IMG/VR virus record: IMGVR_UViG_3300043429_000224
Location: 1 to 39,433 of that record
Strand: one strand, 5' to 3'
Length of the DNA stretch: 39,433 bases
Source: a virus
Shown here: one piece after another, positions 19,296 through 38,615 of the stretch
Numbering within the stretch: the stretch's first letter is position 1
How the letters are laid out: each line of letters starts with the position of its first letter
Position numbers and translations under genes: made by a program
The notes under the pieces: generated by a model
Told to the model about the DNA's origin: nothing
The model's input: only the letters and a program-made list of their open reading frames with translations
Database searches by the model: none

Positions 19296-19514
19296 ATGAC
19301 CACCAGCATCAGCATCCACAACGTTTCGGCCATCAAGGCCGGCGCCGTGCGCGAGGAGCGTTACCAGTACAGCGGCCGCGAGTACTTCGTGCGCACGATC
19401 GACATCGTGGACGACAGCGGCCACAAGTTTTGCCTGACGCTGTTCAGCGACCTGATGGTCGGCCTCGCCATCGAGATGCCCGCGTTTGTTGCTCTCGCCA
19501 AGGGGGAAGCATGA
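19296..19514 (+). CDS. Small early protein, 72 aa
   Basis: A beta-rich protein (SISIHNVSAIKAGAV, then YQYSGREYFVRTIDIVDDSG and HKFCLTLFSD). ATG 19296 has GAGGAG overlapping the stop of the previous gene, and its own stop overlaps the next ATG. It looks like a compact beta-sandwich protein. The function is unknown. Confidence 0.7.
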   Translation: MTTSISIHNVSAIKAGAVREERYQYSGREYFVRTIDIVDDSGHKFCLTLFSDLMVGLAIEMPAFVALAKGEA

Positions 19515-20128
19515 CCACCTACACCACCCTCAACAAAATCCGAGCACACGGCCCGTGCGCCCACGGTTGGTCTAAGCTGCTGCGGCACTTGGGCAAGACG
19601 CAGGCAGACGACGAGCCGATGGCACTGACGACGATCCTCGACAGCAACGGTCTGGACGACGCGCTGTGGTGCCTGCGCTCCTGCGACGGCATCGACCGAG
19701 AAACGCGGCTGTACGCGGTGTGGTGTGCCAGACAGGTGCAGCACCTGATGACGGACCCGCGCTCGCTGGCCGCGCTGGATGTGGCCGAGCGGCACGCTAA
19801 CGGCGAGGCGACAGACAAAGAGCTGACCGCAGCGAGGGACGCAGCGTGGGCCGCAGCGTGGGCCGCAGCGTGGGCCGCAGCGAGGGACGCAGCGTGGGCC
19901 GCAGCGAGGGCCGCAGCGGGGGCCGCAGCGAGGGACGCAGCGTGGGCCGCAGCGTGGGCCGCAGCGTGGGCCGCAGCGAGGGCCGCAGCGAGGGACGCAG
20001 CGTGGGCCGCAGCGAGGGACGCAGCGTGGGCCGCAGCGAGGGACGCAGCGTGGGACGCAGCGTGGGCCGCAGCGAGGGACGCAGCGTGGGACGCACAAGC
20101 CGCTGAATTTCGCAGGAGATTTGCATGA
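19511..20128 (+). CDS. Early protein with Ala/Trp tandem repeats, 205 aa
   Basis: Residues 1-105 are a conserved phage domain starting [20 protein letters not shown] with [14 protein letters not shown] and [20 protein letters not shown]. Residues 107-194 consist of 22 four-residue units of the types [16 protein letters not shown] and AAWD, encoded by 12-bp tandem repeats. The end AAEFRRRFA is basic. ATG 19511 overlaps the previous stop and is preceded by GGGGGAAG. Similar phage proteins with Ala/Trp/Arg repeats exist, with varying repeat number. The repeat region is predicted to be one long helix with tryptophans every fourth to eighth residue. The role is unknown. Confidence 0.8.
19829..20092 (+). 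repeat. Tandem array of 22 twelve-bp units
   Basis: Units follow GCAGCG-(T/A/G)GGG-(C/A)C with only two variable positions. I count 22 uninterrupted copies (264 bp). The repeat length is a multiple of three, so the reading frame survives copy-number change. All six frames stay open here, which explains several spurious ORFs. Confidence 0.92.
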
Positions 20129-20781
20129 CCACCGAGCACCTTGAGCAACGCACCGAAGAGTGGCTGCAGGCCCGCGTGGGCAAGGTCACGGCGAGCGGGT
20201 TTAAGCATGTCATCGACCGCAAGAAGGCAGGCAAGCGCAGCGCGGACGGTCAGAAATATCTGTGGCAACAAGTCATCGAACGCCTGACCGGCCAGCCCGC
20301 CCCTGTGGCCCGCACCGTCGCCATGCAGTGGGGCACCGATCAGGAGCCCGTCGCGCTGCAGGCATACGTCGATGCGCACCTCGTCACGGTTGAGGCCGTG
20401 GGCTTCGTGCAGCACCCGACGCTTGCCGTTGGCTGCAGCCCTGACGGGCTTGTCACCGAACGCAGCCCTGCGACCGGCTCGGCGTCCGATGGCCTCATCG
20501 AGATCAAGTGCCCCTTCAACTCTGCCAACCACCTCGAGACCTGGCTCTCCGGGATGCCCGAGGAGCATCAAGCACAGGTGCAGGGTCAGATGTGGCTAAC
20601 GGGCCGCGAGTGGTGCGATTTCGTGTCGTTCGACCCGCGCATGCCTGACGATCTGCAGCTCTACGTGCAGCGTGTTCAGCGTAATCCCAAATACATCGCG
20701 GGCCTGGAACGCGAGATCATCACGTTCCTCGGCGAGGTCGATGCCATCGTCGGCAAGCTGCAGGCGAAGACCTCTTTCTAG
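20125..20781 (+). CDS. YqaJ-family viral exonuclease (lambda Exo-like)
   Basis: This 218-residue nuclease resects double-strand ends so that an annealing protein can recombine phage DNA. The family motifs are seen in order: [19 protein letters not shown] (6-24), QWGTDQEP (E74 region), VGCSPDG (D107) and LIEIKCPF (E126, K128), ending with Q-rich [15 protein letters not shown] 20125 overlaps the stop of the repeat gene. The following gene encodes a likely RecT-type partner, the normal arrangement of a two-component recombination module. Confidence 0.92.
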
Positions 20782-20806
20782 TCACCCACCACTACAGGAG
20801 TCACAC

Positions 20807-21511
20807 ATGACCGCTCTCGTACCCGTCTCTGAAATCGAACGCATGGCCGCATCCGTCGCCAAGTCGGGCCTCTTTGGCATGAAAACCCCCGAGCAGGCAA
20901 TGGCACTCATGCTCATTGCACAGGCCGAGGGCATGCATCCGGCCAAGGCGGTGCAGGAGTTCCACATCATCAACGGCAGGCCAGCCCTCAAGGCCGACGC
21001 CATGCTGGCCCGGTTCCAGGCCGCAGGCGGGTCGGTGCGCTGGGGCACCTACACCGAGCAGGCCGTCTCGGGTGTGTTCACGCATCCGCAAGGCGGCAGC
21101 GTCGAGATTGAATGGACCTACGCGATGGCCGAACGCGCTGGGCTGACGAAAAACCCAACGTGGCGGCAGTACCCGCGCCAGATGCTGCGTGCCCGCGTGG
21201 TGTCCGAGGGCATCCGCACGGTGTTCCCTGGCGTGGTCGTCGGCGCGTACACCGAGGAGGAGGCGCAGGACATGGCCCCGCCCTCGCGCCAGCAGGTGGT
21301 CGAGATCGTGCCTGCCGCCCCCGAGTCCGAACCCGCCGACCTCCTCGCGGCCATCGACGCCGCGCAAACGGTGGACGAACTCAACGCCCTCAAGCCCCGC
21401 ATCCGCACGCTGCCCGCCGATCTCCGCGCCGAGATCACCGACGCCGCCAAGCAACGCGCCCAGCAGATCCGCGAAAACGCCACCGTGGATGCCAGCGATG
21501 ATCCGATCTGA
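20807..21511 (+). CDS. RecT-like single-strand annealing protein (putative)
   Basis: The 234-residue protein follows the exonuclease and begins MTALVPVSEIERMAASVAKS. The core segments AMALMLIAQAEGMHPAKAVQ, FHIINGRPALKADAMLARFQ and YPRQMLRARVVSEGIRTVFP (residues 30-145) are typical of a widespread phage family usually annotated as RecT-like. The C-terminal third is a flexible Pro/Ala linker followed by helices and an acidic end. ATG 20807 has CAGGAG 7 nt upstream. Partnership with the exonuclease is supported by adjacency. The exact fold class is not provable here. Confidence 0.8.
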   Translation: MTALVPVSEIERMAASVAKSGLFGMKTPEQAMALMLIAQAEGMHPAKAVQEFHIINGRPALKADAMLARFQAAGGSVRWGTYTEQAVSGVFTHPQGGSVEIEWTYAMAERAGLTKNPTWRQYPRQMLRARVVSEGIRTVFPGVVVGAYTEEEAQDMAPPSRQQVVEIVPAAPESEPADLLAAIDAAQTVDELNALKPRIRTLPADLRAEITDAAKQRAQQIRENATVDASDDPI

Positions 21512-37206: not shown

Positions 37207-38615
37207 CAGACGTTCAGCGCCTCAAGCCGCGCCTCAAGCCGCAGGAACGAGACATGCGCGTCCGAGTCGCCCCTGAAGCGCTGCATGCGGATCGACTCCA
37301 TATGGCCCTGCTGGAACCAGACGAGGCGCTTTCTCGTGTCTCCTGTGTTGCCGGCACCGATGAAGCGATCTTGGCTCCACGACATGCCATCGGTCGAGTA
37401 CGAGGTCGAAATGGTCGGATTCGTGCCGATGGTCACGCGCCCCGGCAGCGCCACGAGTTCAAGTTCGTGGAAGATCGCGCCCTTGGACTCGTTGTAGACG
37501 ATGGGCGTGACGAACTCCCAGCGGGCTTTCTGGCCCCACTGGTAGCTTGTGGTGCGGTCAAGGAACCCGACGCGCGGCTCGCTCGGGTGACCGACCTGCC
37601 AGCGGTCGTAGCACCAAACCAAGTTCTGCGCCGGGTACTGCTGGAAGCCCGCAACGCCGGCAGTCAGCGTGTACCAAATGCGCATCTGCAGCGCCTGGCT
37701 GGCCGCGTGGTCGTAGACCAGCGTGCGGTCGGGCAAATGGACGTACAGCAACTTGTGCGCCCGGTCGATGCGGGCCTCCAGCTTGACCGTCGCCAGCTGC
37801 GCCTCGGTGTAGGTCTGCAGCAGCAGATCGACGTCCTGCGTGGCCAGCGGAACGCTACTGGCGTTGCCGCCGAGGTAGATGCTGGGCGACTCGTTGCGAC
37901 CGTTGCCGAGGAACGCGATGCCCTCATCCCCGAAGGCGCAGCAGGCGTGCGTACCAACTGCGCCACGCATGATCTGCGCACCCTCAACGCGCTGGAACGG
38001 AAAGAGTTCGCCGCCGATGTTGTCAAACACCTCGATGGTGTTGCGGTTGACTGCGTAAATCTCGTTGCGCAGCTTGATCAGCGCCACCACCGGGTCTGGG
38101 CTGATTTCAGACGACCCGTACTTGAGCGGGTTGACGTTGAGCGGGTTGCTCAGGTCCGTGACGACGAGGAACTGGCCGTCTGTCGTCATGAAGTACCCGT
38201 CCACCCACACGACGTCGAGCGCCGTGCCGAGGTCGGGGTCGGTAACCTGCGTGAGCGTTGACCCGTTCCAGTAGAACAGGTTGCCGCCGCTGGCAATCGC
38301 CAGCCGGTCGAAGGAATAATCGAACGTGACGTATCCCGTCCCGCCCACGTCCCCCAGCACTGTGATTGAACCCACAGCAGACACCGTGACGAGCTTGGTG
38401 CCCATGATCCGGTAGCAGACGCCGTTCCACTCGATGCCTCCCCGGTCTGCGCCTGGAGCGCCGGCTGCAAGTTGCACCACGCCATCATGAGGGCGCAGGT
38501 ACTCCTGGCTCACGCCTGAGCCCTTCGGGACGGGCATCATGTTTACCGGGAACGCGGTGCGGATGTCCGGCCCGTTGTCCGAGTAGATGCCGGCGACGAT
38601 TGGGATGGCGGCCAT
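37206..38615 (-). CDS. P22 gp10-like packaged-DNA stabilisation protein
   Basis: The 469-residue protein equals P22 gp10 in length (472). It begins MAAIPIVAGIYSDNGPDIRT and has the family segments TAFPVNMMPVPKGSGVSQEY, LRPHDGVVQLA, NEIYAVNRNTIEVFDNIGGE and LFPFQRVEGAQIMRG (residues 180-215), followed by IRMQRFRGDSDAHVSFLRLE near the end. It would form the hexameric plug below gp4 that keeps DNA in the head. ATG 38615 overlaps the previous stop as TGATG. Confidence 0.92.
   Translation of the reverse strand: MAAIPIVAGIYSDNGPDIRTAFPVNMMPVPKGSGVSQEYLRPHDGVVQLAAGAPGADRGGIEWNGVCYRIMGTKLVTVSAVGSITVLGDVGGTGYVTFDYSFDRLAIASGGNLFYWNGSTLTQVTDPDLGTALDVVWVDGYFMTTDGQFLVVTDLSNPLNVNPLKYGSSEISPDPVVALIKLRNEIYAVNRNTIEVFDNIGGELFPFQRVEGAQIMRGAVGTHACCAFGDEGIAFLGNGRNESPSIYLGGNASSVPLATQDVDLLLQTYTEAQLATVKLEARIDRAHKLLYVHLPDRTLVYDHAASQALQMRIWYTLTAGVAGFQQYPAQNLVWCYDRWQVGHPSEPRVGFLDRTTSYQWGQKARWEFVTPIVYNESKGAIFHELELVALPGRVTIGTNPTISTSYSTDGMSWSQDRFIGAGNTGDTRKRLVWFQQGHMESIRMQRFRGDSDAHVSFLRLEARLEALNV

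Follow-up and report, generated by a model that had tools for sequence, protein, structure and literature searches.

We analysed the whole of the virus record IMGVR_UViG_3300043429_000224 from IMG/VR (39,433 bases, hereafter the window) and showed that one of its genes carries a 12-bp coding repeat that varies only where amino acids change and that turns over among relatives. The gene (19511..20128, plus strand), found in the list of open reading frames (ORFs) and by profile match, encodes a 205-residue protein of the phrog_18326 family. In this protein a conserved N-terminal domain (residues 1-106; 19511..19828, plus strand), which homology and profile comparison place as distantly Imm5-like, is followed by the array (19829..20092, plus strand) and by a conserved C-terminal tail of 11 residues (20093..20125, plus strand), recognised in the alignment of relatives. 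With moderate confidence, we take the array to be a helical-hairpin arm whose length can be tuned without loss of frame, carried by a phage protein that is immunity-like and probably acts in counter-defence.

Variation within the array and turnover among relatives

Direct read-out, unit by unit, gave 22 uninterrupted units of the form GCA GCG NGG GMC, coding for AA-[W/R/G]-[A/D]: 10 AAWA, 7 AARD, 2 AARA, 2 AAWD and 1 AAGA. Tandem Repeats Finder (TRF) reports the same array at 19827-20095 (period 12, 22.4 copies, score 405), with a higher-order period of 48 bp (score 447), and this repetition is far beyond chance. The units differ only at nucleotides 7 (T/A/G) and 11 (C/A), where each substitution alters the encoded residue (W/R/G and A/D, respectively), and not one silent change occurs across the 22 units. 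A first-pass annotation of the sequence had proposed both the unit count and the restriction of variation to two base positions, and both hold, as does its statement that the unit length protects the frame: the array proceeds in 12-bp steps within ORF 19511-20128, whose frame is correct because N-terminal homology to many phages fixes it. Exact duplicates within the array span 60 bp at most, which makes it resolvable in principle by ordinary short reads.

That annotation had missed the frozen silent sites, together with the conserved N-terminal domain and its relation to Imm5. In 37 independent regular arrays, the third and fourth residues of the unit (x and y) are more variable than the Ala third codon positions in every case (37/37, p=1.5e-11): 46% of units depart from the array consensus at nucleotide 7 and 39% at nucleotide 11, compared with some 2.5% at the third positions of the Ala codons, which are wholly unchanged in 29 of the 37 arrays. 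Every array mixes xy types, the commonest making up at most half of the units, and the ratio of nonsynonymous to synonymous polymorphism (pN/pS) is 2.0 inside arrays versus 0.26 between N-termini. The consensus Ala hexamer differs between phages, with 12 different hexamers among the 37 arrays; therefore, the silent sites are homogenised within arrays and not constrained generally. Because homogenisation alone would erase both kinds of variation, the simplest reading is that selection keeps the x/y residues mixed. The same frozen-silent, varied-amino-acid pattern was noted for gene 54 of phage Tweety by Pham et al. 2007 (PMC2884959). The basic and acidic fractions of the arrays showed no clear correlation (Spearman 0.19, p=0.054).

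These data bear on two explanations that place the cause at the level of DNA. The repeat could act as DNA (a recombination site, a G-rich structure or an array of binding sites), the protein being incidental, and indeed a GGG run is present in each unit of the window array and DNA homogeneity within each array is near-perfect. However, the Ala codons vary freely between phages, variation falls at precisely those positions that alter the amino acid, and the protein pattern is kept where the DNA is not; we consider such a role highly improbable. A diversity-generating retroelement or other targeted mutator could likewise diversify x and y, as the variation keeps to fixed positions, at each of which A is one of the alternatives. 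We nevertheless rejected the array as a retroelement target, because the record holds no match to a reverse transcriptase (RVT_1) and because adenine-specific mutagenesis would strike the silent A at position 3 of the unit, which is the same in 22/22 units. Most of the variation is a reshuffling of few unit types, and we give next to no credence to this explanation.

Array turnover is seen in 24 of the 26 gene pairs sharing at least 90% N-terminal nucleotide identity, whose two arrays are different. Loci L285 and L287 run for 3273 bp without mismatch, one 21-bp unit being their sole difference, and L154 and L172, which differ at 1 of 290 N-terminal nucleotides, have arrays that differ in number and order of units and use the same codons. 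The Tweety gp54 genes of the mycobacteriophages Llama and AlpineSix are 144 bp (12 units) and one mismatch apart, with identical 1-kb flanks on either side. Copy number is not fixed among relatives, and the rapid copy-number change suggested at first pass is found among them; that it could tune length is plausible, Tweety gp54 being a published precedent (PMC9262239, PMC8549241). The likeness to contingency loci drawn in the same annotation does not extend to classical ones, because 12-bp steps cannot turn a frame on or off, and the arrays parsed in relatives are open.

The array might nevertheless be a neutral by-product of slippage in a GC-rich gene, poly-Ala helices being harmless. Slippage clearly occurs, as L285 and L287 attest, copy number is highly variable, and some relatives have static arrays: in two close pairs (L291/L314 and L148/L153), degenerate, non-repetitive arrays are nearly unchanged, unlike the repetitive ones. 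Neutrality does not fit the near-frozen silent sites and mixed amino-acid-changing sites of 37/37 arrays, nor the absence of any array fixed for a single unit type, nor the retention of an Ala-rich array across 100 N-terminal clusters with a conserved C-terminal anchor. We regard neutral slippage as quite improbable.

Predicted structure and the Imm5-related domain

AlphaFold2 modelled the 22-unit window protein as a confident helical N-terminal domain with two array helices (102-147 and 149-204; mean predicted local distance difference test (pLDDT) 90.3), and a four-unit relative as a short version of the same helix-turn-helix (pLDDT 88.5). The single long helix expected at first pass is replaced in the model by two antiparallel helices. 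The array is predicted to form an antiparallel hairpin arm, whose length would follow the unit number and whose tail would return to the N-terminal domain. Searching predicted viral proteins with Foldseek gave one match annotated Imm-5-like (2.4e-4). By sequence, the PDB gave no significant match to the window protein; a weak repeated Foldseek match to 7jtu_B, a deaminase toxin entry, is not used as evidence.

The window protein matches phrog_18326, a family of unknown function, over residues 2-164 (1.4e-61, and 6.3e-59 on the genome), and NCBIfam gave no match to it. Scanning IMG/VR returned 477 related stretches, and the relatives' phages have Pseudomonas, Burkholderia, Erwinia, Curvibacter and Vibrio hosts. 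All complete relatives read share one layout, in which about 105 conserved residues precede an Ala-rich array, which is followed by a short tail where a Q is conserved and EFRR or LR is frequent. The array period is 4 residues, sometimes 3 and 4 mixed, and relatives carry between about 3 and 33 units, with a median of about 16. The coefficient of variation of length is 0.35 for the array versus 0.05 for the N-terminus. Tandem paralogs of the window gene reach four in one phage contig, L059 (2394-4522), where the N-termini are 70-84% nucleotide-identical and each copy has its own different array. Another contig, L316 (1501-2770), has two tandem paralogs whose arrays also hold a second, 8-residue repeat type resembling SDYRVIFA. 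By analogy, such paralogs may recall polyimmunity loci.

PMC3482391 lists Imm5 among the immunity proteins that act against deaminase and CdiA-C toxins, and also records it within polyimmunity proteins. Two paralogs from one contig, L089, with the array removed, exceed the 25-bit cutoff of PF21805 (Imm5_like), at 27.6 and 30.3 bits, and L322, found by a genome search with PF21805 (42.7 bits), aligns to the window-family N-terminus with an hhalign probability of 99.3%. Because these members bridge the two groups, the N-terminal domain of the window family is shown, as far as sequence comparison goes, to be distantly related to the Imm5-like immunity proteins. The PF21805 match covers part of the domain in the bridging members, Imm5-like proteins too run on into an Ala-rich helix, and paralogs in tandem occur in both Imm5 (PF14423) or Imm5_like proteins and the window family. 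The window family differs in having about 57 extra N-terminal residues and a long tandem array, and in that no toxin gene was seen beside the window gene.

A putative counter-defence role

Tweety gp54 is a counter-defence protein, and mutants that escape prophage defence gain or lose its tetrapeptide repeats (reviewed in PMC9262239 and PMC8549241). It shares with the window protein a 12-bp Ala-Ala-x-y unit with invariant silent positions, by which the window array belongs with it: the first six nucleotides and the third codon positions are invariant, and the amino-acid-changing positions are varied. Both have conserved N- and C-terminal regions, and in both large copy-number gaps separate near-identical isolates. 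The two differ in family (phrog_3416 for Tweety gp54, phrog_18326 for the window protein) and in x/y residues, which are mainly G/W and S/Y in Tweety gp54 and W/R/G and A/D in the window, and tuning of counter-defence by repeat number is published for Tweety alone.

We propose a length-tunable counter-defence protein because the repeat is of the same kind as in Tweety gp54 and the domain is immunity-like; from Tweety gp54 and Imm5 together, we infer that the window family probably has such a role. Slippage or unequal recombination would add, drop and shuffle 12-bp units with the frame intact, and this would homogenise the silent sites while selection would hold residues 3 (W/R/G) and 4 (A/D) mixed. 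The arm would sit between the conserved Imm5-like N-terminal domain and the conserved C-terminal anchor, so that a change in unit number or order may alter its reach and surface and hence engage a different putative partner. The protein would most likely neutralise a host- or prophage-encoded defence toxin, with copy number tuning it.

Several points weigh against this proposal. Neither Pfam nor PADLOC matches the window protein, and PF21805 gives no match to it at E<=1, leaving the protein itself outside that family. No toxin or defence partner was identified. By profile comparison, the N-terminus shows no detectable homology to that of Tweety gp54, a candidate relation rejected at an hhalign probability of 0.1-0.2%. 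As to structure, the hairpin turn (residues 147-149) is of low confidence, Foldseek against the PDB found no significant match, and repeats are easily over-modelled. Assembly errors are possible in the IMG/VR arrays, which were taken from metagenome assemblies, and this is why the isolates Llama and AlpineSix matter.

The gene neighbourhood brings in another explanation. Upstream lies a small gene for 72 residues of unknown function (19296..19514, plus strand); downstream lie, by context, a YqaJ/RecE-like exonuclease gene (20125..20781, plus strand) and a gene for a RecT-like single-strand annealing protein (20808..21511, plus strand; start 20808 judged by eye, the gene having been scanned as the enclosing reading frame 20672-21508). 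The array gene overlaps both neighbours by ATGA, at its start with the preceding stop and at its stop with the ATG at 20125, and the ribosome-binding site for the exonuclease gene, AGGAGA, lies within its C-terminal tail. Because the YqaJ exonuclease gene and then the RecT-like gene follow, the array gene is located in an early recombination region. The array could have a structural role, as a linker or oligomerisation arm, for instance in replication or recombination beside YqaJ/RecT, its length varying without a specific target; the gene does lie in an early replication/recombination region, immediately 5' of the YqaJ gene in several relatives. Yet the neighbours vary over the family (YqaJ is not adjacent in PPpW-3, Bcep176 and many loci), the N-terminus is immunity-like, and x/y diversity with frozen silent sites is not what a linker predicts; we think this account rather unlikely. 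Elsewhere in the record, a further perfect 12-bp tandem repeat, GCGCCTCAAGCC, occurs at 37217-37242 (2.2 copies).

The same repeat on other proteins

A pattern scan for five strict units, with nucleotides 3, 6 and 7 left free, matched at least 119 stretches. Among the matches listed, 105 have readable N-termini, 40 of the window family, 28 of the Tweety gp54 family and 37 others; these others form 12 groups, of which four have 2 to 13 members. Single-member groups, which may contain misread frames, are not relied on. The array-bearing N-terminal domains among the matches listed include DUF7666, DUF6197, Imm5_like alone and two unnamed recurrent groups. In all three classes of the matches listed, nucleotides 3 and 6 are frozen, with 44-45% variation at nucleotide 7. 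In one Tweety gp54 relative (L332 1001-1651, Ardmore gp46), the array is read in a shifted frame and the usual C-terminus is lost.

We tentatively suggest, as a possibility still open to doubt, that 12-bp AAxy arrays may be a portable tuning module that keeps the frame and that phages have attached to several unrelated early proteins, immunity-like ones included. Repeat number and x/y order would then set the specificity of a general class of counter-defence proteins, much as a repeat's variable residues do in other modular binders. PMC2884959 also cites bbp36 of Bordetella phage BMP-1, where isolates differ in the copy number of a tandem repeat (VR2); as described there, this repeat differs in being a 24-bp element with spacers and in lying in a non-essential gene. 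A literature search on further tunable arrays or on phage proteins resembling Imm5 found no additional relevant paper.

Tweety gp54 was previously known as a lone tunable counter-defence protein, a curiosity. The same repeat now turns up in a large, unstudied family of phage proteins that bear an immunity-like domain, and it is also joined to several further N-terminal domains; testable candidates thereby exist beyond the mycobacteriophages, among them cultured phages of Pseudomonas and Burkholderia. This suggests that phages may have a general route to adapt to bacterial defences, by changing repeat number and not by point mutation.
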